A DNA stretch of 64,000 bases, taken from assembly GCA_037042915.1 (NCBI GenBank), contig CM073201.1:3596001-3660000 (forward strand), given 5' to 3'. A program made the translations under genes and the position numbers. Shown here piece by piece: positions 8,701 through 45,028 of the stretch. How positions within the stretch are numbered: the first letter of the stretch is position 1; each line of letters starts with the position of its first letter. Below the pieces are notes generated by a model. The model saw only the letters and a list, made by a program, of their open reading frames with translations, did not search any database and was not told the origin of the DNA. The stretch is from Auricularia sp. M13. Its lineage: Eukaryota > Basidiomycota > Agaricomycetes > Auriculariales > Auriculariaceae.

Positions 8701-9832
8701 GTTTCCCAATCGCCCTCTAGCAATGCACGTCTGGGATCTAGGGCGAAACACTTCGCGGTTGTACCCATATCACTACTCTCCTGGCTGCGAGTCCGTGTCA
8801 CTCTCCGTGGCATTCTCGTCAGACGACCGCCACCTCAGCATGTTGTCGTCTGACGGAATTAAACACTTCCTCACGAGGATCGAAGTCGTACGTGACGACC
8901 ACGGCATGAGTTTGCGCGACGCCGTGCGAATCCCTCTGTCCGACGATCCGATCGGTGAAACCCCCGACATTGATCCAGAATCGAGCGTCTATACCATGGA
9001 CGGCGACTTCAGGAAGTGGGCCTCAGTGCTCGGGTCACACTCTGTTGGAGGGGAGTACTACGCCATTGCGCGCACTGCCAAGGCGGCCAGCATCTATCAG
9101 GGTGAATCGGGCATAGCGACTTTTCAGATTCCTTTTGCCGTATCTGCCCTTGAATTCGAGCCGCCACCGCATCCCCATGGGCAGCGTCTGTCTACCGGTG
9201 GTATGGATGGCTCGGTAGTGGTGTGGTCATTGCGGGAGGAATGCGAGACCCATCATTTCAGGGGTCACGATCATCCTGTCCGCTCATTGGCATTCTCCTC
9301 GCCTGGGCCGGCGGCGTTACTTGCCTCCGCTTCATGCTTCAGCATGGACTCAACTGTCATAGTTTGGTCACTCGACAACGGGTGCTGCATCTGGCACCAT
9401 CGGGATCGAGCATTAAAGATGACTGTCTGTGTAGCTCTCGTTCACCCTGCCCTGTCTCTCAATCCCCGCGCCTTTCTCTTCGACAACATCGGCACAATAC
9501 GCGTCTGGGACCTGCTGGACTCATCCGGCTCTCTCGCTCCAGCTGCCAGGCAACATATTCGGTTTATGTCGTTTTCACCTGACAACCGCGTCCTAGCCGC
9601 TGGCACAGACTCAACAGTTTGTCTATGGAACATCCATAGCGGGAAGCTCGAGCAGTTTTTCCCTTTGCTCGACTCTCGCGACGATGAGGACGATTCATGG
9701 ACGACTTGCCGCACTCATGGCCTCGTATTCCAGTGCCCACGAAGCAAAAATCCCTCCTGGGTGCGAGTATGGTGTCCGAACTGTGCATTTAATCCGGCGC
9801 CCCCCGTCGGCTTATTTTTGTGCCCGTGGTAA
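5701..9832 (+). pseudogene. NACHT-WD40 NLR gene, 5' part, cut by a giant transposon
   Basis: STAND-class receptor. Exon model: 5701-5850, 5906-6042, 6088-6259, 6304-6382, 6423-8062, 8111-9767. Residues 1 to about 170 form a helical bundle (FIPVVGQYLEPSLKGLMKLF) like the MLKL-type N-terminal domain of basidiomycete NLRs. The NACHT P-loop GLAGTGKST is near residue 232 and Walker B VVIVIDALDE near 335. From about residue 800 a WD40 propeller shows GGMDGSVVVWSL, FRGHDHPVRSLAFSS and AAGTDSTVCLWNIHSGK. Such receptors sense non-self or damage and oligomerise to trigger cell death or defence in fungi. The frame enters the transposon's inverted repeat at 9768 and stops at 9832, so about 22 residues are element-coded. 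The intron 6383-6422 is only 40 bases but restores frame. The missing end is at 31636-32078. Confidence 0.88.
9762..9767. repeat. Target-site duplication, left copy (TGCGAG)
   Basis: TGCGAG directly precedes the inverted-repeat tip TATGGTGTCCG. The same six bases directly follow the opposite tip at 31630-31635. Perfect duplication indicates one insertion event with little later change at the ends. Confidence 0.85.
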
Positions 9833-9869
9833 TACGCCGGGCTCCCGCCGATCCCGTCGTAAAATTGTG

Positions 9870-9965
9870 CCCCCTCCATGTAACAAATTCCTTCCATGTA
9901 ATAAAATTTCCTTCCACGTAATAAAACTTCCTTCCACGTAACTCAAACTCCTTCCACGTAAGTTT
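9870..9965 (+). repeat. Subterminal array 1: CCTTCCACGTAA boxes at 20-base spacing
   Basis: Boxes CTTCCATGTA or CTTCCACGTA start at 9891, 9911, 9931 and 9951, with a variant near 9874, giving an exact 20-base pitch, about two helical turns. The mirror array is in the right repeat at about 31330-31425. Evenly phased subterminal boxes are typical transposase binding sites. Confidence 0.75.
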
Positions 9966-9969
9966 GGCC

Positions 9970-10225
9970 TTTTGTAAATGTGACTCCCGCCGTAAATGTG
10001 CCTCCCGTCGTAACTTCCCGGCGTAACTCCCGTCGTAACTTGCTCCCTGCGTAACTTCCCTTCGAAAACTGGACTCCCGGCGTAACTTCGTCCCGTTGTA
10101 ACTTCGTCCCGTTGTGCTCCCGCCGTAAACTTGAGTCCCGGCGTAACTTGCTCCCGGCGTAACTTCCTCCTTGCGTAACTCCCTGCGTAACTCCCTGCAC
10201 AAGTTCTGCCCACCGTAACTTGTAC
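9970..10225 (+). repeat. Subterminal array 2: TCCCGNCGTAACTT boxes
   Basis: About fifteen copies of a box close to TCCCGGCGTAACTT, spaced irregularly at about 12-25 bases. The mirrored array occupies about 31080-31330 in the right repeat (AAGTTACGCCGGGA form). Probable second class of transposase or accessory-protein binding site. Confidence 0.72.
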
Positions 10226-10734
10226 GTTTGTAGGCTCCCATTGTGATATTCCAAAGCAGAGTCAGTGACTCAAATTCTCTATAATTAAGTGAGATAATGT
10301 GCACAAAGGATAGTAGAGTAGATGAAACAGATGCATGTTGGGCAGGTCAGAAGTGCGAGGAAGCTGGCAAATCAAAGCAGATGGACATTGGTGATGAATG
10401 CTGAGTGTAGTGAATGTGATTGCGAGGAATGGGAGAGGAACTGAGATGTGTACAGCGAGTGGCAAATCGATAACAGATCACAATGATTGATTGGGCAAGA
10501 CAACGCATGAGAGCCGAGGTCATGTACATCTCAGTGTTGCTGCTCATTATGATGCTGCTGAGGTGAGTGGGCTCTGAGCAGATCAAAGGAGAAGACAGGG
10601 GAGAGGCTGGGATTTACCGATTGATTCAGACTGTGTCACCAGCTTGACGTTTCGCCACAAGAACTGTCATCTAATAGCTCCAAAAAAACTTTCAATATAC
10701 ATTTTCAGCTCAGTTCACATGACAATACTTGATT

Positions 10735-10798
10735 CCGGCAATTTCCGAAACTTGCGCACACGCGCTTAATTTTGTGCGCAACTTTCGGAAATTGCCGG
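10735..10798. repeat. 64-base palindrome at the inner edge of the left inverted repeat
   Basis: Arms CCGGCAATTTCCGAAA and TTTCGGAAATTGCCGG are exactly complementary, with TTGCGCACA-type sequence extending the pairing toward the centre. A matching 64-base palindrome is at 30484-30547. It could be a structural or binding element of the transposon, or a small element trapped inside both repeats. Confidence 0.75.
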
Positions 10799-10830
10799 TG
10801 TAAGCAGCATTGGCAATTCCTGACTGAATT

Positions 10831-12543
10831 AGACAACGTTGAGAAATAGAACTTACATAATCAAGTCTAAGAGCTAAAAATATTCCGCAATTTGTGTCCA
10901 TGGCCGCCATAATGCCCATGTCAGGCTGAATTGAAACCACAACCAATCTTTGCCCCGTATCTCAACAACCAGTGCTCAAATTCTGTGAATGAGGGCCTCT
11001 TTCTGATTCCCCCAGTGTCCCTAACGTGTGTGCTCCATTGCACGTAACCACAAGTTTGTATGCTGAGAGACAGGAACTGCTCTTGCTTGATATTCAGACA
11101 GGCGGCTGCTGTACAACCAGTTCGCACCCGATGATAGACGCCTCCTGATGATGTGAACAAAGTCTGAAATGCGAGAGGACTGGGGCTCACTAGCCACTTG
11201 TGCATCTGATGCCAGGGGGATATCTGTCCATTCTCTGGCTCTCCTGCACTTTTTATATACACAATCAGCTCCCCGAATCAAGTCATTATAGTCACTGAGG
11301 TATCCTAGCTACTAAGAGTCCAGTTCTGTACATGAGTAATGACGAGCCGTGCTCGTGGCAATGAGGGACGCCCCACTGAAACCCACCGTTTCCGCATATG
11401 GACTTCCCGATTTGGCAAGATTTGCGCTGTCAGCACCGCCACTCTCAGCCCTCGCACATCGCATCCCATCGCACTCGCTCGTGTCCGTCTATCCGCCTAA
11501 GCCCTCGTCTTCAGATTCCACCATTAATCCGGACGTACTAGCCCGGGAGGACCGCAGCAGCATTATCAAATCATGCCGCTGCCATCAGCAGCGCTGCTCC
11601 CGCTCTCCCCCTGTCTGGACGTCGCCTCCCTGCTTCCCTCTCGTTCCTGACCCTTCATATTGCATACCGTTCGCCTCGCCTCGTCATTCTGCGCATATTC
11701 CGACCTTTACTTTCGTGTTTTGTCCACTCCTTCACCGTCTCGACTTTCTGCCTCCGTCTGCTGTACACGGCTTGAGATCCAGCTCTCTGTCACCCATATG
11801 CTCTCGCTGACTGTACTTAAGCCTCTGAATACGTGCTTTGATCCCCAGAATATAGTTCCCCACTCTCTCTCAGCTGCTCTCAGTGCTCTCAGTCCTAGAG
11901 CTCAAATCGGCTCCTCAGCTCCCTCAAGTTCATTCTCACTGTGTCAGATCAGCGGCCATCCTTCTGACAGCTTCCCACTTGTTCCTATCGACGAACTCTG
12001 TCTATTCCGTACGCACTTAGGGGATTTATCCGCATCCATGCTATTGGGCTAGTAATCCTACCGGGTCCCCGCCCCTGACTGCTCTAGCTCCTTCTGCCCC
12101 AGAGCCTGCGCGTCAGTAAAGTCTGGAGACTGTATCTGACACCAGCCATAGCAACAGAGCTAGCATTGGCTCTACGCACTCTGGGTTGCTTCGCCAGAAA
12201 AGATATAGCGCTAGGACGCAAATAGAGCATCTTGGACTTGCTGGACACATGTGTCAGATATGTTAGACACTTGTATTTTGGTTTGCTACTCCCAGCTCCC
12301 AGAACTCCCAGGTCCTGACTTTGACTGCTCCTGACTCCTGAACCCGAGACTTGTACTCCCAAAGTTAATGGTGAAATAAAACTTGTACTCCCAGAGAGCA
12401 ACTTGTAAGGTGGAATAAAACACAAGTCACTCCTGACTCCCAAAATGGTCAAAGCAGAGCAGATGTATTGCGCGAGTTGTGTGCGAAAGATACAGTGTGT
12501 CGAGATGAGAAAAAAACGAGCTACGATACAGCTATAATACAAC
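10831..12543. other. Non-coding interior of the KDZ element with an ACTCCCA-rich segment
   Basis: 1.7 kb between the left inverted repeat and the first cargo gene. I see no protein family in it; the pyrimidine-rich open frame near 11349-11810 has no recognisable motif. From about 12290 to 12450 the motif ACTCCCA/CTCCCAG recurs (for example ACTTGTACTCCCA twice). Its complement is abundant at the other end of the element (29900-30110). Confidence 0.55.
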
Positions 12544-14318
12544 TTATGCTACAGCTACAGGCAATTCCGGACGAAGGTGAGGCACCGGCGGCAGTCTGTG
12601 ACGATAGTCCATGAAGGACTGGGCGAAGCAATGCCAAACGCTGCTCTCCAGATTATAGAAGAGCTCGGACTCGCAGTTCACGGAGTGGATGTTGCCGCCG
12701 ATGGCGACGAGCTCATCCCACGGTTTGAGGAACTGGTCAGCTCGAGGCCAAGGGCGCATGAACGTGTAGAAGTTCCACAGGCTCTCGAGGCGCTCGGTGC
12801 GATCGACGACGGTCAGCTTGTTGATCGCATTCCGGTCCGTGCCAGGGACAAAGTCGGAGCCACCCCAGCAACCGCGGCATTGTCTATATCGCTGCTTTGC
12901 GTCGAACTGGAGTGGCGCGTGGTCGGGGTGACTCTGCCGGATCGTGAGGTCGAGGTAGAAGAGCTCATAGCGGAACTCTAGCTCCGTCAGTTCCCACATG
13001 ATGTACCTGCGCCAATCCAGCGACGGCCAGACAGCATCGTCGTCCTTGCCCGCCGTGAAGGGAGGAAGCTCGTAACCGTCAAAGGTCGGGTGGTTGATTC
13101 GGTCGATATATTGACCGATGCGCTTCAGCGGCTCGGCGGGCGGCATCTCGACGGGCGGCTCAGCAGGCGGCTCGGGCGGCGTCTTGTTGGCGGGGGGCTC
13201 AGCAGGCGGCTCAGGCTGCGTCGTCAAAGGCTTTGGACCAGCAGTGGGAGGTGGTTCGAGTCGTGACGAGCTCGACGGCACCGCTGGCGGCTCGGGCCCG
13301 ACAGACAACGGCGGCACAGACGGATCCTCGAAACGCGAACGGCGCCACTCGACGATGGTGCCAAGGGGGCCCATAACCGCAACGGGACCCTGCTTGTTGG
13401 CCTTTGGTTGCGGTTTTTTGACACCCGCACGTTCCCAGCATCTACAATTTCATGAGTGATTAATGACTGAGCACAACTGCGGACATACCCATCCCAATCT
13501 GCCCGCCAAATCCGTCGCGATCGAGGTGCCAGTCGCGGATGGTCATCGTTTGTCCGCCACTCAATCGAGTTCTTGAGCAGCTGCTCGCCTTCGAGGTACT
13601 GCGTGGACAAGGGCAGATAGATGATGCGCTTCGCCTTGTAGTCCCACCACTCCGTCATGCCGCGCTTGATGTTGTGGAAGTCGCGATGCTTGCGACTGAT
13701 CAGCCAGAACGTTGGGGCGTCGTCGTTTGCCTCATCCACGCTGAAGTACCACACAGTGTAGTACGTCAGCGGGCGCGTCTTCTTGCTCTTGGGCTCTGAG
13801 ATATACCAGGTCTTGGGTTCGACCTGGCGCCGCTCAGCCTCGCTCCGTCGAGCTACTTCGCCTTGTTCGGGTTCGTCGAAAAGGTCGCGAATGAGCGTGT
13901 CCTTGAGCTCAGAGACGGTCTTTGCCTGGACGGGGGGACTAGGCGGACCGTACATTTCGTTCATTTCCTCCTCGCAAGAGTCAGAATCTTCGTCGATGTC
14001 GAAGACTCTCGCCGGCCGTGGACGGTTCAGACGGGGCGGAGGCGGCGGCGCAGGCTGGGGTGGAGGCGGCGGCGGATGCGGCGGCGCTGGCGCATGTACG
14101 GCTTGACCGGACTGTGCAGCAGACGGTTGGGATGCGGGCGGTAGCGGAGCAGGCTCGTCTTCGTCCTGCACACTATCATCCACAGGCTTGGGCAACGATG
14201 TGACCTTAGGTGCTGGTTGCGGCAGGCTCGCGTCCAGACCGAGCAAGTTGACCATGCGAGCGACATGCTGCTCCGGCACGACCAACTTCAACAAATTTCG
14301 CCAATGAGGCGCGGACAT
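12544..14318 (-). CDS. Cargo gene of unknown function, proline-rich with conserved Trp/Tyr blocks (possibly the 3' half of the gene at 14409-16411)
   Basis: Begins MSAPHWRNLLKLVVPEQHVA at 14318. A proline run and an acidic stretch (DIDEDSDSCEEEMNEMYGP) follow, then an aromatic-rich block (WYISEPKSKKTRPLTYYTVW; RDFHNIKRGMTEWWDYK). After an intron near 13440 a second part carries PPAEP-type repeats and WRRYIMWELTELEFRYELF. It ends in PHLRPELPVAVA and a stop at 12544. I recognise no domain. Only about 90 bases separate it from the upstream minus-strand gene, and an intron from about 14460 to 14321 would join both in frame. One long gene is therefore as likely as two. Its place inside the transposon marks it as cargo. 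Confidence 0.6.
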
Positions 14319-14408
14319 GCCTGGATTCTGACTGGCATCCGGCTGCCGCCAGTCGCCGAAGAAAATAAGGACGGATCTTGAGCCAATGCAGCAAGGGTTT
14401 AGCGGTAT

Positions 14409-16411
14409 TCAAGTTTCCGCTCTTGACTTCCTGGGGCCGCGTGGCACTGGCGAGGGTACACCGCCCTTGCCCTTGCGTAAGTTAAAGCCGGGCTCCTTTG
14501 CGGCCTTCCAGGCGTTGACGAAATACGATGCCAAGGGGACCTTGTGCAGCTGCAACTTGCCGATGTTCGGCGGCACAGGCAGCACGTCGGCGGTCATGAG
14601 GTCCAGCTGCCGCTCCCGCGATACATTCACGCGCCCGGAGACGTTATGAGCGGGCATGAATACCGTTGGGAACCAGTGCGGCCGCTCCGTGCTCTTGTAA
14701 GCCGAAATCCTGTCTGGCGCCACGAGCACAATGTTGTCCAGGCCAATTGTCGAGTTCTTCCCTTCGAGCAGCTTCGCAGTCGTTCCGCGGTTGCGCTTCT
14801 TTGGCGGGGCATCCGCGCTGGAACCCGGGTCTTTGCAGTTCTGGTCAGTAACCTATCATGAGAAATAGCCAACAGATACATACCCTGTCTTTTGCGCTTG
14901 GACGACATGCCCGACCCTTTCGCGCCTGTCGATGGCCCGGCTGCTGACAGCTGCGGCGCTGGAGGCAGATGCCCTGCAAGATGCGCTGGCGCGGGAGGAA
15001 GATGCGCTGGCCGGGGAGGAAGATGCGCTGGCGGGGGAGGAAGATGCGCTGGCGGGGGAGGAAGTGGTGCTGGCAGTGGCGGCTTAGCCAGCCTCGGGTC
15101 ATGGCTCGTCGAACTCGGACCTGCAACGCCGCTCGACGAGCTTGCGACGGGTACAGGCGCGTTGTCCTGGAAGCCGACGTCCTCGGTGCCGTTCCAGACG
15201 GACTCGGTGACGGCGACGTTTGATCCAGAGAAGGTCGTGATGTCGCTGACGGGCTGCGCCTCGACATAATGGTTGCGCTCGATGTCGTGTATATGAGCGC
15301 ATTGCTGACTCCCGTACATCCTGTACATGGCTCGTCGGATGACTCCCGCCCGCTGCTTTTCAAGGAGCTCGTTGAAGTGTGCTCGAGTGAAAGGCAGGAG
15401 CTGCCACACAGGAATGTCTCGCGATGCGTAGAACATGGCGAACTTGTCACTGGTGGTGAAGCAGCCCCATAAGGCGCGACGTGCCGAGTAGCCTGATATA
15501 TATGCGCCCGGCGAGCAACCTCGTATGACGAGACGGTGGGAATGTATGCGTCCAATCGCGCCTCGAGGTCGCCCGTCTTCTTCTCCAACTCCATCCAGCC
15601 CCGTATCTCGTTCAGACAGCGCTGCCACTCTGCGAAGTTGACGTGACAGTCCCACTTCTTTAACGACTGTCGTCTCAGGCTGCTTGTGAGCTCAACGAAC
15701 TTGTCGTACCGCTCCGTTGGAATACGGGCCAACGCAGTCCTGCGGCCTGGCTTCTCCACGGCTGCCCGCCAAAGGGGTGTCGTCTCCAGCTCCGTCGTTT
15801 CGATACGATTTAGAAGCAGCGTGGGCAACTTGAAGAGCTCGCTGCCCGCTGGTCGGAGGTGCTCGTCTTCGAGACGATACCAACCCAAGTCTCCGAGCAT
15901 GTCGGTGTGCCGGAGATTCCACCAGGCGCGGCCAATCTGCAGCGGAACTTGTGAGCCCACTGGCTTGAGCAGCGGCACGAACGCCATGTGCAGGTTGTTC
16001 TCGTCGTGCATCTGCGGCAGTTGGCTTGCCTCGTAGAGACCGAAGCGACCGTCGACGCAGCGCGTTGGGTCGACGACGGGGTAGTCTGGTATCTCGGGCA
16101 CAACGTCTCGATTCGTCCGCACGATGTATCTGGCCTCCCGCAGGCTGGGCCAGGCGCAGAAATACGGCAGAGCGGTGAACGAGGGGTCCTCCCTGAACGA
16201 AGCCATCAGAGGCTCGTCTGCCAGTAGAAACATCTCGAGAACTCACGATTCATTCTCGTCGATGTCCATCTGGACGTCGACAGCCTGTGCCTGCGCGTTC
16301 GGATTCGACGCTGGCTGGCTGCGAGGTCGTCAGCATCAGATCGAGACGGCATACTCGAAACACTCACGCATTGTCGACGTCCATGTCGACGTCTCGAGAG
16401 TCCACGTTCAT
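14409..16411 (-). CDS. Cargo gene of unknown function (N-terminal acidic segment, Trp-rich body, PAHLPP repeats)
   Basis: Likely start is the ATG at 16411, giving MNVDSRDVDMDVDN; an intron leads to a second short acidic exon with VDVQMDIDENE. The long body runs from MASFREDPSFTALPYFCAW through WHNLRHTDMLGDLGWYRLED-like blocks (seen as WWNLRHTDMLGDLGWYRLED) to WQRCLNEIRGWMELEKKTGD. A later exon has DKFAMFYASRDIPVWQLLPF. Then come repeats of PPPAHLPP (15000-15070 on the plus strand), a basic SSKRKRQ, and a last exon with ERPHWFPTVFMPAHNVSG. No family is recognised. The exon joint before MASFRED is unclear (no intron of ordinary size fits). Together with the next gene downstream it forms a minus-strand block inside the transposon. 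Confidence 0.6.
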
Positions 16412-18009: not shown

Positions 18010-19585
18010 ATGGCCGACACTCCAGGTGCGCAATTCATCGTTCTGGCCATTGCGACTCATCAACTCGTCGGTAGGACCATATCCCGAGAATGAGAGTATC
18101 CCGGTGGACTTCGCCGAGTTATTCCAGAGAATCGTGCAGCAGGCACAGCTCAGCGGTGGGGAAAACTGCGAGATCTCTTTGGCATTCAACGCGACGGTAC
18201 GGAGGAAGCTCTATCGGACGACGATGCTGGACAGGTCACTGAGCAACCTGTGACTCCGGTACAAGCTGCTGGGACTCTCGCGGCTGGCGAATCAGCTGCT
18301 GAGCCGCTCGCGGAAACTGGGACAAAAGCTAAAGGCCGCAAGCATAAGTCAGCATCGCCTGAACACTCATGCACTTGCTCTGACTTGCCACGAAGGAAAT
18401 CCAGAGCACTAAATCCCGAGAAACTCGAGGCGAAGATGCTTACAAGCTGGCATCGTCTCAATAAGAAGATGCTAGAGACTGCGCTGAAGCCCGGGAATAT
18501 ACGTACGTACTGTTGAGAATACATGCCCTCACCAACTCCTCCGTACAGACCGCGTTCCCGAGCTCGACCTCGCCGCGCTCGTCGACAGGAATCAAGAGCG
18601 CAACAGCAAGCCTTACCCCGCCTTCGAATCTGTGACGGCCAGGGTCAGCGATGAGCCTTTTGTCCTCGTGGACAAGAAAGACGTACCTGCTGTCATCGTT
18701 TTCCCGAACTGGTTATCCAAAGCTAGTCATGTGCGTCCGCTGCTGCGGAAACTCCTACTCACGTGCGGAATAAACTCAGGACATCCTATTCAAGAGTCTC
18801 ATGGACTTCGGGCGCAGTGTCGGTGTGAAAATTCGCGCTGGCGCAGATCAGAATGTGAGAGACGCGGAAGAATGCTATACTCGGCAGGAGCATCAAGACG
18901 AACTGCACGGCGTATTCCAGTTGGTATCCATCTGGAGGGCCCTCGGTCGATCGGTGAGCTCAGATGATCAGCCTAGAGTGTGTGTGCTCACCGGGTGAAG
19001 GCGAACAATGGCCCTGCGGGGCCCGCTCGCGATCTCTTCAAGAAAACAGACAACCTCAACGCGGGGCTCGCGTTGCTTCGAGAGCTGCGGCTCGTGACCA
19101 TGCGACTCATGGACATGTTCCAGCTCATCGACCCCGAGCAGTACAACCTCTTCAACGATGCCTCGGAGAAGTTGAAAGCCATGTACCCCGCATATGCCGC
19201 GCTGGCCGCTGCCGACCCCTCCTTCCTCCACGGGAGAAGTCTCATCTACAATCGAGAGACCGGCGAACACACTGACCGCCGCGATATGAAGCTCGCATGG
19301 ACGCCGATTCTCACAGTGGGTAAATACCGCGAAGGCACGCTTCGTGTCGCGGGTTCGGACATTAACTATCTCCCCGGAACACTTGCGTTCATTAGAGGGG
19401 GCATCTTGAAGCACTCTGTTCAATTCGCAGGCGGTCAGCGCATCGCGATTGCGCACTTCATGCACAAGAATGTCCTTGCGGAGGTCGGTGCAACGAAGGT
19501 CAAGCTTTTCACATACAAAAAAATGGCGGGCTATAAGCCGCCTTTCGACGAAGGCAACGGTGACTGCGATGAACCGATGAATTAG
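18010..19585 (+). CDS. TET/JBP-family 2-oxoglutarate/Fe(II) DNA dioxygenase (transposon cargo)
   Basis: Exon model: 18010-18025, 18075-18196, 18235-18502, 18549-18730, 18780-18953, 19001-19585, giving 449 codons with all phases consistent. The catalytic half is in the last exon. SLIYNRETGEHTDRRD gives the H-x-D metal motif (about residues 344-346). PGTLAFIRGGILKHSV gives the distal His near 392, and QRIAIAHFMH gives the Arg for 2-oxoglutarate near 401. This is the pattern of fungal TET/JBP proteins, which oxidise 5-methylcytosine (TET) or thymine (JBP) in DNA. Upstream exons encode a Lys-rich segment (TKAKGRKHK) and VPAVIVFPNWLSKAS. All catalytic residues are present. It lies inside the KDZ element, downstream of a hairpin cluster. 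Which base it oxidises is not visible. The 38-base third intron is unusually short. Confidence 0.86.
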
Positions 19586-19769: not shown

Positions 19770-20766
19770 TCAAGCCGAACGAGACTTCTTCGTCACCGGC
19801 TGGAGTTCCTGCTGCTCATCGACCTCGCCCTGCATGTCTCTCTTGCGCTTGTCCCTGCTCGACGGTGCCGCGGGTGCCTGCCTGGCACTGGCGACGTCGC
19901 GGCTCTTCGACGGGCCGGGAACGGGCACCGGGGTGGCGAACGGGTTAGGTTTGGGGCGGCCATTGCGGCTGGCCGAACCAGCCATTGGCCGCTGCATGAT
20001 TGCCGTCCCGCTGGCGGCGCCACCGCGGAGGCCAGCATTGGCGAGGGAGTGGCAGCGGTGGCGGCGGCGGCGGCGGCGGCGGTGCTTCGCGGCACGGTGG
20101 CGGGGGCGACGGCGCGTTTGGTGCGTGGAGGGGAGCGGTGGCGGTGGGCACATGAGCGGGAGCGCCGGTGGCGGCGGGGTTGGTTCGTGGAGCGGCAGCG
20201 GCAGCGGTGCGGGCGGGAGCGGCAGCGGCGGCGGGGTTGGTTCGTGGAGCGGCAGCGGCTGCGGTGCGGGCAGGAGCGGCAGCGGCGGCGGCGGTGTCGC
20301 CAGGTAGTATCTCCGGGATTCGGGTTCTCGGTTGGAGGATAGGATCTGGCAGCTCGGATCCGCTGTACGGCCTGCGCACAAGCCGGAGCTGTACGACGAT
20401 GGACATGCCGTCACAGTCATGGCCATCCCGGCCCATGTCCATATCGTCGCCTTCCTTCAGGTGCGCATAGCGAGGAATATCCTCACCGTAACTTGGGTGC
20501 ACCTGCAACACCTCGACGAACAAGTTTTTCTCCCAGTCGTTCAGGAGAGAGAGCACGGTGGGCGGCAGCTCGTCGTAGCTCAACCACCGGTTGAAGCGCG
20601 GCGTGTTCACGATGATCGTCTCGCCAGTCTGATTGACTTTAGTCTCGCGCAACATAAGAAAAGCGCGGCGGATAATACGCACCACCATCTGACAATAAAA
20701 CTGCCACTCGCCGTTGGGGCGGGTCGGTTTGTCCGGTAGAGAGTAGAGCGGAAGCTTGGGGGGCAT
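19770..20766 (-). CDS. Cargo gene of unknown function, Ala/Pro-repeat protein with C-terminal nuclear-type signal
   Basis: Starts MPPKLPLYSLPDKPTRPNGE at 20766. A folded-looking N-terminal region has WQFYCQMVVRIIRRAFLML and FNRWLSYDELPPTVLSLLND, with no family recognised. From about 20310 to 20060 the protein is a low-complexity run built on PARTAAAAAPRTNPAA units. The reading frame that gives the best C-terminus (NGRPKPNPFATPVPVPGPSK, KRKRDMQGEVDEQQELQP, then KKSRSA) differs from the N-terminal frame, so an intron or frame change must lie near 20300-20060. The basic ending suggests nuclear import. It overlaps no other cargo and is convergent with the TET/JBP gene. Confidence 0.55.
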
Positions 20767-21024
20767 GGAAAGAGGATTAAAGAGCGGGGTAATGTCAAGT
20801 CTGTAACTGCGAGACCCAGACGCTTAAGTACGTCGCTGCGCGGTCCCACGATCTGGACCCAAGAATATTCCGATTGGATAGAGGACTTGAAACGTGAAAG
20901 AGCTTCCCTCGCGTGGATCGCAGGCCATCACCGCATGACCTTCACCTTTTACTCATTTCTTTGAGGACGCGCCACCCAGATTTTATCCCTTGCTGCGCGA
21001 ACGCGACGACGGCCAGCAAATCCC

Positions 21025-22765
21025 ATGTCACCCCGGACTACTCGCAGCGGCCGGAGCGCGATCGTTCAGCAAGCTCCAGCGCAGGAGACGATCAAGAGGG
21101 CCTGCAAGCGTTGCTCTGCCGCACAAGGCACGAAGGTCAGAGCCCATGGAAGAGCCCGTTGCCCGGTACGACGCTCGCGGTACGCGCTGCCCACAAATGC
21201 TGAGCAATTTCTTAGCTCGCGGCCGATGAAGCCGCGAACCATCTCGAGCGGAAGCAGGAGTACATGGAGGCTACGCGTGCTCAAAGAGACAAGCTCGTTG
21301 CCAGCCGTCGCACGAAGGTCGACGAGCAGGCTTCGGATTCTGACGCCGAGCACGAGGGCGACACAACGCTCGACGAGAGCGAGAACGATGGCGACGTGAC
21401 CCGAAGCACCGCCGCTACCTCCCTCATGGACGACGAGCAAGAGCAAGACGTTGCTCCCGCCTACGACGACAACGAGCACGAGCAAGAGCAAGACGTCGCG
21501 GACGAGCAAGAGCAAGATGTCGCTCGCGCCTACGACGACGACGAGCACGAGCAAGAGCAAGATGTCGAGGACGAGCAAGAGCAAGACGTCGCGGACGAGC
21601 AAGAGCAAGATGTCGCTCGCGCCTACGACGACGAGGGCTTGCAGGACGACGGCGCAAGCGTCAGCTACGCCGGCAGGAGGCTCGACGACGACAACTTCTT
21701 CAATAGCGAGGATGGGCTGTATGCCGCGCCGCTGATGCATGAGCCGCAGAACTTCGACAACGCCGATGCCGTTGCCTCTCAAATCGACGAGTTCACCGAG
21801 CAGGCCGCGCACGAGTCTCAAATCGAGGACGCGGAGAACCAGGGCGACGACAATCAGACCTCTGATGAGGACGAGGACGACAACCCGTACACCGAAGCCA
21901 AAATCAAGAAGATGGCTATTCACGAGCTCGGGTCGGCGCTCGCGTACATCTGGAACTCCAGCAAGGACCGCAAGTCCAAGATGAACGAGGCCGTGCAGCA
22001 TATTGTACAGGTGCGGGAGGACGTCGACACGAGCTCGTGCACGATACCAAACCTGTGGAAAGGCACGAGTACGGCGGGGGACTTCATTACAAGTAAAGTC
22101 CTTGCGCATATACCGTGCTTCATTAACGTGCCGCTCGCAGGTATAAGTCACGCCTCGGACGCCACTCGCCAGAGTCGGGTCCTCACACAGTGGTCGAAGA
22201 ACGCCACGAGCACCAACAGGTGGCACGACACCCTCCCCAACCGGCAGTGTTTGCCTGAAGGTGAGCCCTGTCCGCGCCGATGTGCTGTCCGCTGCTGACG
22301 CGCGCACCTCGCAGATGGAGAAGCTTGCCGACTGGTGCCCGTCGTGGGCGTTCATCGCCTTCCTGCCCAAGGACGGCAGCGGGCAAATGTACACTTGGGT
22401 CTCTGAGTCGATCGCGGACCGAGAAACCCGAGCTGGCGGAGGCCATGCGCAGCACGATGTTCGAGCAGCTGTACAACCTCCGCAAGCAGCGGGCTGCTGA
22501 GGACATGAAAGCCCGCGCCGATCTGACGGCGAGGGCTGAGGCCGCCGAGGCATGGATGATGGAACAGCAAGCAAAGTTCGACGCGATGGAGGAGCGGCTG
22601 GAGCAGGCAGAGCAGGCTCGCAAGGAGCTCGAGGAGGCGCGCAGTACTGGCGGGAGAAGGCGCAGAAGCGTTCGAAGTAGCAGTATCGCAGTACAGATAC
22701 CTCGATACCCCCACATTCCTTTCTTTTTCCTGGTCTCCTCGTCACACATCCGTCCGTCCGATTAA
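21025..22765 (+). CDS. Cargo gene of unknown function, acidic EQEQDV repeats and C-terminal coiled coil
   Basis: Probable start MSPRTTRSGRSAIVQQAPAQ at 21025, followed by a basic region with a CKRC pair. After an intron the frame continues DEAANHLERKQEYMEATRAQ. Between 21430 and 21640 repeats of DEQEQDVA and AYDDDEHEQ make a strongly acidic domain. Then comes a conserved-looking segment (IKKMAIHELGSALAYIWNSS). Near 22310 QMEKLADWCPSWAFIAFLPK begins another, and from 22430 to 22640 a long coiled coil runs (LRKQRAAEDMKARADLTARA; EERLEQAEQARKELEEARST). Exon joints at about 22100-22270 and 22425 are uncertain. No family is recognised. The acidic/basic/coiled-coil make-up suggests a chromatin- or DNA-complex-binding accessory protein, but that is inference. 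Confidence 0.55.
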
Positions 22766-23084
22766 TATCAGTCACTCGTTATCGCACTCGCCCACCGCTC
22801 CAGGAAATGCAAACAACAAATCATTTCATTGCACCACATAACAGGAAAAGTAGATCAGAGAGCCTGCTCCGCCGTGTCCCAGTGCTGCATATATGCATGT
22901 ATGCTGATAAGCGAGCATATAGCGCGCGGTGGTACTTCGTCAACGCCGTTCCGTTCCTGGACGTCTGAACAACACAGAACATAAGAAAATAGCACCTGAT
23001 GCTCTTCAGGGAAGGGATCTTCCAATGCTCGAGCATATCTTCTGACTGTGGGCGCAACACTGATTTCGTCGGGGGAATGGATGC

Positions 23085-23520
23085 GAGGAACGGGAATGAG
23101 ATGTCCAGGGACGCCAAGGAGGGTATATTGACGCATATACCCTCCTTTGACCGCCCACGCTCACTGATGCGTGAGCGTGTATGCGGGTGGCGTCCTTGTG
23201 CGAGCCGGCGATAGCGTCGGGGGGAATGCATGCGAGAAACGGGAAGAAGATATCCAGGGACACCAAGGAGGGTATATTGACGCATATACCCTCCTCTGAT
23301 CGCCCACGCTCACTGACGCGTGAGCGTGTATGCGGGTGGCGTCCTTGGGCGAGCGGGCGACTGCGTCTGGGGGTCTTGGGGGAATGGCTGCGAGGAACGA
23401 CAAGAAAATGTACAGGAGCACTCTGAGGGACGCCAAGGAGGATACATTGACGCATGTAACCTCCTCTGACCGCCCACGCTCACTGGCGCGTGAGCGTGTA
23501 TGCGGGTGGCCGTGCAGGTA
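23085..23520 (+). repeat. Three copies of a 149-170-base repeat, each with two hairpin types
   Basis: Each unit contains a hairpin around TTGACGCA (arms GAGGGTATA / TATACCCTC at 23119 and 23268; changed to GAGGATACA / TGTAACCTC at 23438). Each also has a second hairpin with arms CACGCTC / GAGCGTG around ACTGATGCGT, ACTGACGCGT or ACTGGCGCGT. Confidence 0.8.
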
Positions 23521-23989
23521 CGCCTAAGCGAAGAACCTGTCCCCATCATCTCGCCTATGAGGAGAACGCGAGAAGCCGCTCACTGACGCGTGAGCGGCCT
23601 CGTCACAGGCCCGCAGTTAAGCGGGCCTGGCCGTGCTGTCGGACGGACACTGACCCGTGGCGTCGACAGCAGCGGGCGGGCGGTGAGTCTGGGTCGGAGT
23701 TCGAACGGACTTTGGTCTTTCATCCGCCCTCCCCCTCCTCCGCACACCCCCATCCCCGTCACCCACCCGCCTTCGCCCGCCACCCCGCCTTCCCCCTTCC
23801 CTCCTCCCTCCCTCCGCTCCGCCGGTGGCAACGCGTCAGTTGCCATCCAGAGCTCAGGTCGTTGGTGAGCGTGGACACGCGTCAGTGTCTGCGCTCTCTT
23901 CGGCCGTCCCTCCTGCCTCACTAAATACATCGTATCACCCGCCAGTGCCAGGCATAATTTTCCTTCATACTTTACCTTTGCCCATTTCC

Positions 23990-24545
23990 CTCCGTGATAG
24001 TCAACGCGTCAGTTGTCTGCCCGGAGAAACGTCGAGCACGCGTCAGTGTTCGTACGCCCCACAATCCTCAAATTAAATAATAAAATCTTGCCCGTTGCTC
24101 TCCGTAGTAGCCAGAATCGTTGACTAATAATTTCTCTGTGTCCAATCCCCTCCGTGGTAGTCAACGCGTCAGTTGTCTGCCCGGAGAAACGTCGAGCACG
24201 CGTCAGTGTCCGTACGCCCCGCCATCCTCAAATTAAATAATAAAACCTTGCCCATTGCTCTCCATAGCAGCCATATTCTCTGATTAATAATTTCTCTGTG
24301 TCCATTCCCCTCAGTGGCAGTCAACGCGTCAGTTGTCTGCCCGGAGAATCGTCGAGCACGCGTCAGTGTCCGTACGCCCCGCCATCCTCAAATTAAATAA
24401 TAAAACCCTGCCCATTGCTCTCCATAGCAGCCATATTCTCTGATTAATAATTTCTCTGTGTCCATTCCCCTCAGTGGCAGTCAACGCGTCAGTTGTCTGC
24501 CCGGAGAATCGTCGAGCACGCGTCAGTGTCCGTACGTCCCAAATC
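23990..24545 (+). repeat. Four tandem copies of a 160-base repeat upstream of the transposase
   Basis: TCAACGCGTCAGTTGTCTGC starts exactly at 24001, 24161, 24321 and 24481. Each unit carries two ACGCGTCAGT cores 34 bases apart, followed by an AT-rich part with TCAAATTAAATAATAAAA. The last copy runs to within about 15 bases of the transposase ATG, so the array must hold the transposase promoter or its 5' leader. Confidence 0.85.
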
Positions 24546-24554
24546 CAGATCCTC

Positions 24555-27458
24555 ATGGCACGCGATATCTTCGTCGAGCCCACCTATGTGCGGCGGCGAG
24601 GAAAGAACAAGACCTCGCAGCCCACGAGCTCGTCAAGCGCTGCTCGCAAACGCGATTCCACGAAGGCGACAGCGGCGGGCAAGCGCGCAGCACCTGCTCT
24701 CGACGTCGACCGTCCCGTGAAGCGGCGCAGGATCTTGGCGTCCCAGCGCGCTCCAGAGAGCGTTTATGAAGCCTACCGGGAAGCGGTCGATTCGCGTCGA
24801 CTCGCCTTCTTCCACATCGATCCCTCAACCTGGGTCGCCGAGATATGCGACCTCGACACGTTGGCTGCGCAAGGCAGTTGCGTCAACGGCTGGGCTGTCC
24901 TGCGCAGCGAAGTCGACGAAGCAGAAGCCGTGTCGTATAACTGCACCTGCCCCGACTACCTTCGCAACTCGGACGTCGACCAACGATACTGTCTTCACAC
25001 TATGCTGCTTTCGTCGGACCATCGGCCGCCGTTCAAGTTGTTCACCGAGAAAGGTACGTTGACTATCTGTAGTGTCGTCGAGCCTCGCACTGACTGCTGT
25101 AGACGATCCCTCCTCCGTCTTGTTCGAACATATTCCAGCTACACCCCAAGCACCCGCCCTTTCGTTCTTCGTCTCCTTCGTCCCAGGGCACAGCAGACAA
25201 ATCGTCCAACATTGCGGGCGATCCTCGAACCAGGGTCACTGGACTTGCGGCAAGCATCGCGACAACAACTGCGTGCACATCAAAGCCGCTCGTGCCCGCG
25301 ACGCGTTGAAGTTACTGCTCGAGGAGGCGGAAGTCGATGAACACGAGGGTGACGATCTAGCTGAGAGAGCGCGACTACGAGGTGAGCTCGCGTGTTCAAT
25401 GCTTGGCCGGCCGAATGCTAATGGCCCTGCAGCCGAAGCCAAGAGTCTGAGGGATTACGATGATGAGCGGAGCGTATCCCGCCTCAACGTCGGCCCACCG
25501 GCGTGGGCGCGCATTGCCTCAGATTCTGACGAGGATGCACCCACGTTCGCTCTCGTTGATCCTATCCCGGACTACTTCTGCCTCGGCGAAGATCCTCGTT
25601 GCCGCTGTGGGAGTGGTCCGAAGGAATCGGCGCCAGTCAAGGTCATCGACTGCATCGTATTCGGACTCTCGTCCCGCGTGCGCTGCCCAAATCGAAGTCC
25701 AAGTCTGCAGCACCTGCGAGCCCCAAAGCCATCAGAATGCCGGGCCAGACCTGCGCGAGTTCGGTATCTTCAACTTCAATAATTCCCGCCTGTACACGCA
25801 CGAGCTTCTCGACAAGTACACTAGCCTCATGACGCTCGCCGAGGTTCCCTTCCACGCGTTCCATATATCCGTTTGTCGAGATTATACCAAGTCGTCAATT
25901 CCCTTCGTCTGCGAGCGGACGTTCCGAACAGCATATTTCTCGTTCTCCAGACTCCAGAAGCTGGACGTTAGCTTCGTCTGCGACATCTGCGGTGAAGAAC
26001 CCGAGGTCGTCGTGTGTGATGGCGTGACTGCTGGCTTCAGAGCCGACTTGGTGACGGAGTCTCTGCGACCTCCTACGACCATCGATGCGCACGCGTCATC
26101 GATACTCAGCGTGAAACCGATGCCGGGGAGACGTCGTTGGTGAACGGCGATGTCAGAAAGCGCGCCCAACAGGCAGTTCGATGGCGCCTGAAGTTGCGGC
26201 AGGGAAAGACGCCTCTCGCTCCGGGCGACGATTCGGAGGAGTCCCTTGACGAAGATGTCGATGCTGAGGGAGCGGAGCGCGTGGCGAATAAACGACGCAA
26301 CAAGAGAGATGCGGAAGATAAGGCCATGAGAAAGAAGTTGCCTGGGATTGTGGACGAACTCGCGAAGCAGAGCCGTGAATTAGCACAGATGTTCGGCATA
26401 TATGTAGCGACCGATTTGAAGAGCCTCGACAGCACCGTCTTAAAGAATTACTTGCATCTATTGGAGCAGGTGGGTTCGTTTCCTTTCCAGGGTAATGTTG
26501 TCTCTAACATCGTATTTAGCTGCTGGCATATGAGTCGGTGCTACAGTTCGCAAACAAATCGGCGTGGCCCTTTCTCGACATGCTCAAGGACGGCGACGCG
26601 GAGGGCATCCTGCCGCTTCTCTCACTCGTTCCCGCCCTCGCCGTCGTCGCTCGGTATGAAGTGAAGACGACGAAACAAATCAGCTCTACACTTCAAGGCG
26701 TCGCGGGATTCGTTCTTGACCGATCGCAAACGGTCTTCGCGTCGCTTTCGCACCACGACCCGGATGAACACCTGATCGAAGAGCATGAGGATTGGCGCGA
26801 GGTTCGTTTTTATAATGATCCCGGACAGTGACAAAGTTAACACGCATTTCAGACTGGCACCTTCTACGGACGGCCCCGCATTCGAAACAGATCGGTGTAC
26901 CCCAACATTCCTGGAGACGGCGCAACCGATCGCGCGACGGTCACGGCGTCGGGCGGGAAGATGGCGTGCTCCAAGTTTTATCAGACCTATGGCAAGAAAG
27001 GCTTAACGGGTGGCTTAATGGCCATCTGGTGCCCGCACAGTGTCTGCTACGGGTTTCACTGCATCCCGAAAGGCGAGGGCGGAACGACGTCTTTTCCGCG
27101 CTGTACACTCACTGGGTCCGGCCACCCAAAGTCGTCGTATACGACTTCGCCTGCGCGCTGTCCCCGTACTGCATGATTCGGGAACCCATCTACTTCGGCG
27201 ACACTCTTTTTGTCATCGACGGCTTCCATGAGCACGACCACACGCGGTGCTCGCCTGCGTGTTTCCTCAGCGCGTACACAGAATGGTGTGAAAAGTATCG
27301 CAACATCAACTCCAGCGGGCGAATGTGGGAACTCCAGTCTGCTCAAGATCCGCAAGTCGCTCAGTTACATGGGCCAACGGCACGGCATCGTTCTCGTGTA
27401 CACGTTCCTTGCCATTTGGAACCGCATGCGGCAGAAATCGCGAGAGGCAGCTGTTTAA
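24555..27458 (+). pseudogene. KDZ-family (Kyakuja-Dileera-Zisupton) transposase, frame-broken
   Basis: Starts MARDIFVEPTYVRRRGK. A SWIM-like zinc motif follows (YNCTCPDYLRN, then YCLHTMLL), and a second Cys/His group (HWTCGKHRDNNCVHI). Next is the KDZ-associated block CSTC, DLREFGIFNFNNSRLYTHEL, LDKYTSLMTLAEVPFHAFHI and SFVCDICGEEPEVVVCDGVT. The RNase H-like catalytic part has NIPGDGATDRATVTASGGKM, VVVYDFACALSPYCMIREP, FVIDGFHEHDHTRCSPACF and YRNINSS, ending IRKSLSYMGQRHG...WNRMRQ. This is the typical KDZ order. Introns are seen at 25054-25102, near 25390-25430, 26470-26520 and 26800-26850. Conserved blocks change frame with no room for an intron at about 25.67, 26.09, 27.08 and 27.31 kb, so full-length protein is unlikely. 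The change at 26.09 is a 17-base insertion resembling the hairpin core. Confidence 0.85.
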
Positions 27459-27634
27459 TCACGTGGCTTGAGACCCTGTCGATCGGGCGATCATAGATAA
27501 TCCTGTATAATCCCAAGTGCCTGAACTTCCGTCTGCATTACTGGTGAGTCATTTTATTATGTCTGTGTGCTCAATATATAACAAAACCGTACAGTCGCAG
27601 TAAACGTTTTAATAGACCGTGCTTTACAGACGAA

Positions 27635-29894
27635 ATGAGCCCGGAGTATCCGCAACGGTCTCCCTCCGCCCGCTCGCCCTCCGTTCGCCCTCCCTCGACG
27701 TCGAGTCCGTTCTCGGGCTCGACGTCGCGTCGTCCGCCCTGCGCGCGTCAGCGCAAGGCGCGACGCTCGCCCGTCACGCGCCAGCCCTCGACCTCGCGTC
27801 GGGCGTCAGCGGCGCGACGCTCTCGCGTCACGCGCCCGCCCACCACCCGCCTGCCTTGGATGTCGAGCCCTTCACTGGGCTCGACGTCGCGTCGTCCGCC
27901 CTGCGCGCGTCAGCGCAAGGCGCGACGCTCGCCGTCACGCGCCAGCCCTCGACCTCGCGTCGGGCGTCAGCGGCGCGACGCCGCCCGTCACGCGCCAGCC
28001 CTCGACCTCGCGTCGGGCGTCAGCGGCGCGACGCTCTCGCGTCACGCGCCCGCCCACCACCCGCCTGCCTTGGATGTCGAGCCCTTCACTGGGCTCGACG
28101 TCGCGTCGTCCGCCTTGCGCGCGTCAGCGCAAGGCGGACGCTCGCCGTCCGTTCGCCCTCCCTCGACGTCGAGTCCGTTCTCGGGCTCGACGTCGCGTCG
28201 TCCGCCTTGCGCGCGTCAGCGCAAGGCGCAAACGCCGCCCGTCACGCGCCAGCCCTCGACCTCGCGTCGCGCGTCAGCGCAAGGCGCGACGCTCTCGCGC
28301 CACGCGCCCGCCCACGGCTCGCCCACCTTCGACGTCGAGCCCATCGCTGGGCTCGACGTCGCGTCGTCCGCCTTGCGCGCGTCAGCGCAGGGCGCGACGC
28401 TCGCCCTCGCCCGTCCGCCCGTCACGCGCCCGCCTTCGACGTCGAGCCCATCGCTGGGCTCGACGCCGCGCCGTCCGCCCTGCGCGCGTCAGCGCAGGGC
28501 GCGACGCCGCCCTCCGTCCGTCCGCCCACCGGTCGCCCACCTTCGACGTCGAGCCCTTCGCTGGGCTTGACGTCGCGTCGTCCGCCCTGCGCGCGTCAGC
28601 GCAGGGCGCGACGCCGCCCTCGGCCCGTCCGCCCGTCACGCGGCCGCCTTCGACGTCGAGCCCATCGCTGGGCTCGACGTCGCGTCGTCCGCCCTGCGCG
28701 CGCGCCAGCGCAGGGCGCGACGCTCCCGCGTCACGCGCCCGCCCACCGGTTGCCCAGCTTCGACGTCGGTGAGTGATGAGTTTTTTTTTTTGCAGTACAT
28801 GTCGTCTTACCTGGATCAGAACGGCAGCGCGGCGCGCACCTCGATGCCCACGTCCACCCGTTCGAGGCGCAGCTCCTCCCGGGCTGCGGGCCACTCGAAC
28901 TGGGCTACACGCAGCTCCAGCAATGCGGCAACGTCGAGCCCTTCGCCGGGTTGAACATCGCGCCATACGGCTTACCCGACCGCTCGCCCGCCCTCGACGT
29001 CGAGTCCGTTGCCGGGCTCGACGTCGCGTCATCCGCCTTGCGCGCGTCAGCGCACGGCGTGACGCTCTCCCACCGCTCGCCCGCCTTCGACGTCGGGCCC
29101 GGCAACGGACTCGACGTCGCGTCACCCGCCTTGCGCGCGTCAGCGCACGGCGTGATGCCCATCTGTCCCGCGCCTGCCGTCACCTTCCCGCTTGCACAAC
29201 CCGCGGACGGCTTTAACGCCGAGCCCGTCCACGCGCATATCGCGGTCAGCGGCGCATCGCGCACCGTCCCCGATTCTGCGTACGGCGCAATGCTCGACGC
29301 CGAGCTCGAGCAGCTCGACGCGGGCATGCACCGGCCTGCCATGCTGCACCAGCCCGCCTATGCGCCTTTCCAGCACCCCGATGAGTACGTTTACGCGGAC
29401 GGCACGATGCTCGACGCGCAGCCCGAGTGGGTTGACGCCCATCATCAGCCTGAGCTCGATAGAGTCGAAAACGGCGCTGTTGCTGCGCCGACGGTCGACG
29501 CTCTCATCGACGAATTCATTTGGTCGTCGCTGAATCGGCGCTCTTACCAATCCCCGCGCCCATCCTCGTTCCGCGCGCTGACGCCACATCGAGCACGCTC
29601 GCGCCCGTTCTCGTCCCGCGTGCCCGTCCCGATTCCTTCCTCGTTGACGCCGCCTCGCCCTCTGCGGTCGATCCGCGCGCCGCTGCCCGAGCAATTGCTC
29701 GTTCAAACCCACGTGCTCCGAGGTCTCGCATCGCAGCAGAGTATCCTGCAGAATACGCGGCGCTCAAGGCGCGGCACTTCGATCCGCGCGGGTGGCATGG
29801 CAAGGGTGTCGACTTCACCAAAATTGCTCGTACGCCGTATTCGCGACTTGACGCCAAAATCGCAATTTTGAAGGACTCTATTCGGGAGATCTGA
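27635..29894 (+). CDS. Cargo gene of unknown function with long GLDVASSALRASAQG repeats
   Basis: From 27650 to 29160 a repetitive region encodes, in one frame, units such as LDVEPFTGLDVASSALRASA, QGATLARHAPALDLASGVSG and AHHPPALDVEP. The unique C-terminal part includes DAELEQLDAGMHRPAMLHQ, YAPFQHPDEYVYADGTMLDA and, after a frame change or intron near 29520-29600, AEYPAEYAALKARHFDPRGW and RLDAKIAILKDSIREI, then a stop at 29894. The first ATG (27635) opens a different frame of the repeat from the one continued after 28796, and the only intron-like gap there is 27 bases. The model may therefore be broken or the repeat length variable. The repeat units carry the hairpin core GCGCGTCAGC. No domain is recognised. 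Confidence 0.45.
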
Positions 29895-30454
29895 CTTGAC
29901 GGAAATGGGAGTTTGGGAGTTTGGGAGTTTGGGAGTTTTGGGAGTTTTGGGAGCTTGGGAGTCTGGGAGTACTGACTTAGGTAGACTTAGTGGGAGTTTT
30001 GGGAGGTAGGAGTTTGGGGAGTACTGACTTAGGTAGACTTACAGGGTGGAGAAGCCCAGGATGGGCCAAAAGAGTCAATTGGACTCTGGGAGTTGTGGGA
30101 GTTGGGAGTGGGAATATGTACATAGGGAGTAGGAGTAGAGAAATTCAGGAGTATTCCTGAGAAAACTGGGAGCAGCAAACCAGAAAAGAACTCAAGGCCA
30201 TAACCCACATGTGTGATTCATCGTACCAAACATGTGCAGTCTTTGAAGCTAGGCAATGTTCCTGTTTGCACTGCTTGGGAGGTGTTGGCATTAGGCAAAT
30301 GAGCGCAACCACATAGGACCTTTGGCTGAGGCAACCATGCAGGTATCATCTCGGCTTTGCCTGCTTCCTCCACCCTTTTGTTTAGAGTGTGCTTACCTGC
30401 TAGCAGTGTCACACAGCACCAGGTGCCATCAGTCATAGCCACAGTTCCATTATT
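29895..30454. repeat. TGGGAGTT array and spacer inside the right end of the KDZ element
   Basis: From 29905 to 30115 the octamer-like motif TGGGAGTT recurs more than a dozen times, with a duplicated TACTGACTTAGGTAGACTTA (29968 and 30034). This mirrors the ACTCCCA-rich segment at 12290-12450 in inverted sense. No gene is seen from 30115 to 30454. Confidence 0.65.
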
Positions 30455-31629
30455 TAGCTACAGAATGGCCAATTCTGCCCATACCGGCAAATTCCGAAAG
30501 TTGCGCACAAAATTAAGCGCGCGTGCGCAAGTTTCGGAAATTGCCGGAATCGAGTATTGTGATGTAAACTGAGCTGAAAATGTATATTGAAAGTTATTTT
30601 GGAGCTATTAGATGACAGAGGAGAGAATCTGTGTAATATGTTCTTGTGGCGAAACCTCAAGCTGGTGACACAGTCTGAATCAATCGGTAAATCCCAGCCT
30701 CTCCCCTGTCTTCTCCTTTGATCTGCTCAGAGCCCACTCACCTCAGCAGCATCATAATGAGCAGCAACACTGAGATGTACACGACCTCGGCTCTCATGTG
30801 TTGTCTTGCCCAATCCATCATTGTGATCTGTTATCCATTTGCCACTCGCTGTACACATCTCTGTTCGTCTCCAATTTAATCACAATCGCATTCACTATGC
30901 TCAGTATCTATCACTGATGTCCATCTGCTTTGATTTGCCAGCTTCCTCGCACTTCTGACCTGCTCAACATGCATCTGTTTCAACTAATCTGCTATCCTTT
31001 GTGTGCATTATCTCACTTAATTATAGAGAATTTGAGTCACTGACTCTGCCTTGGCATATCACAATGGGAGCCTACAAACGTACAAGTTACGACGGGCGGA
31101 ACTTGTGCAGGGAGTTACGCAGGGAGTTACGCAAGGAGGAAGTTACGCCGGGAGCAAGTTACGCCGGGACTCAGGTTTACAGAGGGAGCAAGTTACAACG
31201 GGACAAAGTTACAACGGGACGAAGTTACGCCAGGAGTCCAGTTTTCGGAGGGAAGTTACGCAGGGAGCACGTTACGACGGGAGTTACGCCGGGAAGTTAC
31301 GACGGGAGGCACATTTACGGCGGGAGTCACATTTACAAAAGGCCAAACTTACGTGGAAGGAGTTTGAGTTACGTGGAAGGAAATTTTATTACGTGGAAGG
31401 AATTTGTTACATGGAGGGGGCACGATTTTACGACGGGATTGGCGGGAGCCCGGCGTATTACACCGGGCACAAAAATAAGCCGACGGGGGGCGCCGGATTA
31501 AATGCACAGTTTGGACACCATAGCACAGTTCGGACACCATAGGGATCGGCGGGAGCCCGGCGTATTACCACGGGCACAAAAAAAAGCCGACGGGGGGCGC
31601 CGGATTAAATGCACAGTTCGGACACCATA
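30455..31629 (-). repeat. Right terminal inverted repeat of the KDZ element
   Basis: Inverted match of 9768-10830. It has the 64-base palindrome (30484-30547), the mirrored TACGNCGGGA array (31080-31330) and the TACGTGGAAGGA array (31330-31425). It is longer than the left repeat mainly because the outer tip is repeated: tip sequences end at 31522, 31541 and 31629. Confidence 0.85.
30484..30547. repeat. 64-base palindrome at the inner edge of the right inverted repeat
   Basis: Counterpart of 10735-10798, with arms CCGGCAAATTCCGAAA and TTTCGGAAATTGCCGG and a centre inverted relative to the left copy. Confidence 0.72.
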
Positions 31630-45009: not shown

Positions 45010-45028
45010 CGCATAGACTGAACAACTA

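Follow-up and report, generated by a model that had tools for sequence, protein, structure and literature searches.

A 21,862-bp transposon-like unit with a KDZ/CxC4 transposase gene, a TET/JBP gene and IS3EU-like ends in Auricularia sp. M13

Does a single mobile unit hold both a KDZ transposase gene and a TET/JBP dioxygenase gene at this locus of Auricularia sp. M13, and to which group of transposons do its ends and its transposase belong? The window, which is the whole stretch of 64,000 nucleotides that was analysed, had been described in a first-pass annotation as containing a complete giant KDZ transposon with TET/JBP cargo. On the evidence of one copy of the element, we consider it probable that the unit is a cut-and-paste DNA transposon with its own KDZ/CxC4 transposase, a TET/JBP gene as cargo and a 6-bp target-site duplication (TSD), inserted in a NACHT-WD40 gene.

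Ends of the element and the interrupted host gene

By direct reading of the sequence the mobile unit occupies positions 9768-31629 (21,862 bp). Its ends and its surroundings contain the following features:

6359-9767, plus strand: host target gene, 5' part, with a NACHT/NPHP3_N NTPase followed by WD40 repeats (Pfam)
9762-9767, no strand: left TSD, TGCGAG (direct reading)
9768-10819, plus strand: left terminal inverted repeat (TIR), about 1.05 kb, with tip TATGGTGTCCG; identity with the right end in inverted orientation 94.8%
9852-10221, plus strand: left subterminal array, in which a 14-bp motif (consensus TCCCGGCGTAACTT) occurs 14 times (motif scan)
30463-31629, minus strand: right TIR, whose tip is duplicated in tandem with a 107-bp period (self-alignment)
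31084-31438, minus strand: right subterminal array, 14 mirrored copies of the 14-bp motif (motif scan)
31630-31635, no strand: right TSD, TGCGAG (direct reading)
31636-32021, plus strand: 3' part of the host target gene, which continues the frame of the 5' part after removal of the element and one TSD

The left tip TATGGTGTCCG has its first base at 9768 and the right tip CGGACACCATA its last base at 31629; together they have the form TATGG..CCATA. When duplication lengths from 2 to 15 were compared, only length 6 gave a perfect match; tips, coordinates and the perfect TGCGAG are exactly those of the first-pass annotation.

The gene that received the element is recognizable from its 5' part, whose open frame runs from 6359 and matches NPHP3_N (1.1e-26), NACHT (1.4e-7) and WD40 (5.5e-18) in Pfam; a short GT-AG intron at about 8062-8108 separates the NACHT/NPHP3_N and WD40 parts. 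Joining the flanks minus one TSD produces a single stop-to-stop frame of 687 codons, encoding a WD40 protein. The downstream piece has no stop in 127 codons, which has a chance of 0.012 when sequences with its dinucleotide composition are simulated; among the plus frames it is stop-free in the host frame only, and one of the three minus frames is likewise open. Codon usage per codon is +0.090 in the host frame of this piece, against 0.121 in the upstream stretch, and its other frames score -0.119 and -0.149 (plus) and 0.004 (the open minus frame). Pfam finds no WD40 repeat in the downstream piece taken alone, so that the link of this piece to the host gene rests on frame and codon usage; a PDB search with the same segment returned nothing useful. 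The restoration of an open, coding-like NACHT-WD40 frame by removal of the element and one TSD shows that the boundaries are real. The element interrupts a NACHT-WD40 gene within its WD40 part; this gene is STAND/NLR-like and resembles immune receptors.

Self-alignment of the window pairs 9768-10819 with 30463-31522, with 978 of 1,032 columns identical and 54 mismatches (94.8%). This agrees with the similarity of about 1.1 kb reported earlier for the two ends, and adds a partly duplicated right tip that had been missed. The right tip is repeated with a 107-bp period: the outermost 88 bp (31542-31629) form a full tip, next to it stands a partial one of 19 bp, and an inner tip has its last base at 31522; the 107-bp duplication and the partial tip lie within 31435-31629. 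The left tip differs from the outer right tip at one of 88 positions and from the inner one at four, and this closer likeness to the outer copy suggests that sequence was copied between the ends or that the right end underwent slippage.

The 14-bp motif was sought in the whole window with the consensus and up to three mismatches. There are 33 matches against 4.67 expected, a number reached by none of 100 shuffles, and 28 of them are inside the two TIRs, all in mirrored orientation. Since the TIRs are copies of each other, their arrays are not independent; the array within a single TIR is already far above chance. Subterminal repeats of other transposons provide the analogy on which we regard these motifs as candidate transposase binding sites.

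Other repeats and genes are present in the neighbouring sequence of the window. Two near-perfect hairpins, at 45027-45891 and 58579-59389, have arms of 380 and 303 nt (98-99%) and CAGTG..CACTG ends; they are flanked by TA, contain no long ORF and look like Tc1/mariner-type MITEs. Two adjacent F-box frames, 41383-43005 (540 aa) and 43447-45009 (520 aa), share diverged repeats, and the second ends beside a hairpin. Diverged direct repeats at 51052-52181 and 60793-61950, about 9.74 kb apart and 82-90% identical in several blocks, probably represent a duplicated gene. With its NACHT-WD40 and F-box genes and its short introns, the window would suit an agaricomycete host.

Transposase, TET/JBP and other genes of the element

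Inside the element we distinguished the following features:

12547-16242, minus strand: large gene with a stitched product of about 1,150 aa (six-frame reading)
18541-19582, plus strand: TET/JBP dioxygenase gene, 3' part (Pfam Tet_JBP and CcTET structures)
19773-20823, minus strand: smaller gene (MPPKLPLYSLPDKPTRPNGEWQFYCQ...) with a proline/alanine-rich C-terminal part (six-frame reading)
20965-22770, plus strand: gene or genes with an acidic repeat region and a coiled-coil-like 3' part (six-frame reading)
23066-24546, no strand: tandem repeats with periods of 149 bp and 160 bp that precede the transposase (self-comparison)
24555-27460, plus strand: KDZ-type transposase gene with a SWIM-like CxC..CxH motif, a CxC4 domain and a KDZ core (Pfam)
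27548-29868, plus strand: repeat-rich open frames with 53-, 107- and 214-bp periods, of doubtful coding status (no Pfam match)

The KDZ transposase claimed for the unit is present. For the Pfam searches its frames were merely concatenated, no sequence being restored, and the whole stitched product matches CxC4 (PF18717) at 1e-34 and KDZ (PF18758) at 4e-4; the core alone matches KDZ at 2.1e-5 (24.8 bits, below the gathering cut-off of 26.6). The two parts that define KDZ transposons, the RNase H-fold of PF18758 and a CxC zinc cluster, are therefore both found, the former at a score under the cut-off. In the stitched protein of 922 aa the candidate catalytic residues are D474, D818 and E878, with 60 residues between the second D and the E. 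The gene has three GT-AG introns.

The reading frame of the transposase switches at four places: about 25,665-25,676, about 26,098, about 27,080 and 27,319-27,324. Possible introns were enumerated at each switch and, for three of the four, several were scored against Pfam. Introns as the cause of these three switches were rejected, every version tried scoring below read-through: 124.5 bits against at most 94.8 with an intron at the first switch, 24.8 against 17.7 at the third and 24.8 against 19.1 at the fourth. At least three frameshifts are, on these domain scores, well supported. The switch at about 26,098 is ambiguous and may be a 59-nt intron (GTGACG..ACTCAG), or else a fourth frameshift. 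Judged from its frames, this copy could yield a normal transposase only if the switches were sequencing errors, and such errors are made less likely by the intact frames nearby (the two F-box frames of 520-540 codons and the NACHT-WD40 gene). The word "complete", used in the first-pass annotation, consequently applies to the boundaries of the unit and not to its coding capacity: given the three or more frameshifts in its transposase, the unit falls short of a complete autonomous element.

The host gene has no frameshift in about 3.7 kb of coding sequence, against at least three in the 2.9 kb of the transposase. If both had decayed equally since the insertion, the probability of an undamaged host gene would be about 2%, a rough estimate of our own that selection on a truncated host gene would weaken. 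An undamaged host frame beside a broken transposase suggests that the transposase was damaged before the insertion took place, and that an intact relative probably provided for the latest move of this copy in trans. Mobilisation in trans is documented in fungi for Styx, where it affected a copy whose integrase was non-functional (PMC10853768).

The TET/JBP gene, also reported earlier, is confirmed for its C-terminal half, on which its identity rests. This catalytic half is a single open exon (18977-19582) with the HxD motif, here HTD, at about 19268. A protein stitched from two open stretches matches Tet_JBP at 1.7e-6 (27.8 bits, below the gathering cut-off of 34.9). The structures of CcTET from Coprinopsis cinerea (8jkk and 7vpn) are matched at E=0.006, a weak similarity in which the HxD...H...R ligands nevertheless align: with His326, Asp328, the distal His and the Arg in register, all Fe and 2-oxoglutarate ligands expected of TET/JBP dioxygenases are present in the exon. 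A single-sequence AlphaFold prediction of the exon had a pLDDT of 33 and was discarded.

At two positions the protein differs from CcTET, with Asp in place of Gly331 and Thr in place of Asp337. The AG type of TET, which is that of Kyakuja, has Gly or Ser at 331 and Asp337 in CcTET numbering, according to Kojima 2025 (PMC12730594); the PE type has HxE where the sequence here has HTD. By these residues the TET/JBP protein, its catalytic ligands intact in the visible exon, is placed outside the AG type and is not of the PE type.

Beyond the transposase and TET/JBP, the element carries three or four genes of no known family, in agreement with the several such genes noted at first pass. The large gene at 12547-16242 is transcribed opposite to TET and transposase, and its frame is broken at least once, close to a run of ATATAT; it has no Pfam match at E<=1, alpha-kinase included, and the N-terminal 374 aa have no PDB relative at E<0.1. 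Its position opposite TET recalls that of the alpha-kinase gene in TET-carrying IS3EU elements. No Pfam match was found for the N-terminal 157 aa of the gene at 19773-20823, and nothing above the Pfam gathering cut-off for the frames at 20965-22770. Rfam and tRNA scans gave no match. No protein relatives were found in viral and prokaryotic contig collections, which do not include fungal genomes, and the 18-mer of the tip has one match in each of them, of 18 bases only, which is the level of chance.

Position among published transposons

Bounded transposons that carry TET are already known: Kojima 2025 characterised complete ones, with their TIRs and TSDs, from 11 lineages, among them Kyakuja, Dileera and Zisupton (PMC12730594). 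The statement of the first-pass annotation that the link between KDZ transposons and TET/JBP rests mainly on gene neighbourhood is thus outdated, and the unit is preceded by those of 2025 rather than being the first of its kind. Nor can it define a cargo-carrying class and its target-site length, as had been proposed, because a single copy is insufficient for both.

Like Kyakuja of Agaricomycetes, the element combines a KDZ-family transposase and TET/JBP within one set of boundaries. Unlike Kyakuja, which has a 7-bp TSD, CA..TG termini and no TIRs (PMC12730594), it has a 6-bp TSD, TATGG..CCATA tips, TIRs of 1.05 kb and Thr at the Asp337 position of TET. Zisupton and Dileera share the KDZ transposase family and, in some families, TET cargo, and differ in their TSD of 8 bp (PMC12730594). 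KDZ1, KDZ2 and KDZ3 of Cryptococcus neoformans resemble the element in having a KDZ transposase with a zinc cluster, TIRs and insertions into genes with TSDs; they differ by their size of 9-11 kb, TIRs of 139-241 bp, CxC1 instead of CxC4 and a TSD of 8 bp (KDZ1) or 4-8 bp (KDZ2 and KDZ3), and the passages compared mention no TET cargo (PMC12810828). In Pleurotus KDZ elements CxC2 stands in the preceding position, and CxC5/CxC6 frames are found apart from KDZ matches. A size of 22 kb is not unprecedented, since a Marasmius library of transposable elements includes elements of up to about 42 kb (PMC9674265).

The ends point elsewhere. IS3EU elements have TA..TA termini and usually a 6-bp TSD (PMC10045372), and the TET-carrying IS3EU of rusts and Tuber are described with a 6-bp TSD, TAYGG..CCRTA ends, TIRs "longer than 30 bp" and TET placed between the transposase and an alpha-kinase gene of opposite orientation (PMC12730594). 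The element has these tips, this TSD length and a TET gene between the transposase and an opposed gene; it departs from the TET-carrying IS3EU in its KDZ/CxC4 transposase, the only transposase found, in the opposed gene, where no alpha-kinase was detected, and in the length of its TIRs. What appears undescribed in the literature compared is the combination: a 6-bp TSD and TATGG..CCATA tips that fit IS3EU, and not Kyakuja, Zisupton or Dileera, in spite of a KDZ/CxC4 transposase. The earlier name "KDZ transposon" accordingly holds for the transposase and conflicts with the published KDZ ends.

Two explanations would make the element an IS3EU. It is unlikely that the Repbase class IS3EU itself includes CxC4-type transposases, in which case the element would be an IS3EU in a host group new for TET-carrying IS3EU; tips and TSD are identical and the gene order is similar, whereas the transposases of IS3EU are described as aligning with the DDE cores of IS3, IS481 and GingerRoot (PMC10045372) and that of Styx as an integrase (PMC10853768). 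Our comparison with IS3EU was made by published descriptions. On those descriptions, with the first candidate D at residue 474 and the D-E distance of 60, against 100-300 residues for the first catalytic D of IS3EU (PMC10045372), we class the transposase as KDZ.

According to the second explanation, which we hold to be quite unlikely, the element is an IS3EU whose own integrase-type transposase was lost or acts in trans, and KDZ/CxC4 and TET are passengers or belong to a nested element. Tips and TSD length are exactly those published for IS3EU (PMC12730594; PMC10045372), and the order of opposed gene, TET and transposase, with TET and transposase in the same orientation, resembles that of some TET-carrying IS3EU families (PMC12730594); moreover a nested Kyakuja, being without TIRs, would be invisible by its ends. 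The position of the first D in the transposase speaks against this, and the Pfam scan of the ORFs of the element found no integrase-like (rve) domain, alpha-kinase or HMG domain. No second inverted-repeat pair of at least 40 nt exists within the element, so that no nested element is visible in this way.

An assembly artefact or a chance gathering of unrelated repeats is highly improbable. Nothing was found in its support, the only stretches hard to assemble being the tandem repeats by the transposase and those of the right tip. Against it stand the exact TSD beside both tips, the restored host frame and the long open frames of adjacent genes, which argue that indel errors are not frequent.

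A transposon moved by its own kind of KDZ/CxC4 transposase, inserted in the NACHT-WD40 gene, is the explanation that we prefer. Weighing against it are the KDZ and Tet_JBP scores under the Pfam gathering cut-offs, the single copy, and ends and a TSD that are unlike the published descriptions of Kyakuja, Zisupton and Dileera compared here and like those of IS3EU. More tentatively, and with less than even confidence, we propose a further TET-carrying lineage, characterized by a CxC4-type KDZ transposase, TATGG..CCATA tips, a 6-bp TSD, long TIRs that bear subterminal arrays of a motif, a TET clade outside AG and PE, and several further cargo genes within some 22 kb, whose end structure would be shared with IS3EU independently or by descent.

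A proposed course of events and its meaning

In the preferred explanation the 21,862-bp element would have entered the WD40 part of the NACHT-WD40 gene by cut and paste, duplicating 6 bp. The KDZ/CxC4 protein, rather than another transposase, would be the one that moves these ends: most likely it binds the mirrored arrays of the 14-bp motif in the long TIRs, pairs the TATGG..CCATA tips and joins them to the target with a 6-base stagger. In the present copy, it would have been an intact relative that supplied this protein in trans at the last move. TET/JBP, as cargo, most likely oxidises methylcytosine on the element and so may counter silencing; an anti-silencing role has been proposed for transposon TET by Kojima 2025 (PMC12730594).

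The insertion in the NACHT-WD40 gene is a concrete allele, and its empty site can be sought in related strains. A transposon superfamily is usually recognised by the length of its TSD and the sequence of its tips. A KDZ transposase with IS3EU-like ends, if true, would imply a KDZ lineage with a different integration geometry, or groups that are related or mixed. The element would also be one more lineage among TET-carrying transposons, and such an addition bears on the repeated recruitment of demethylation enzymes by mobile elements to escape silencing.
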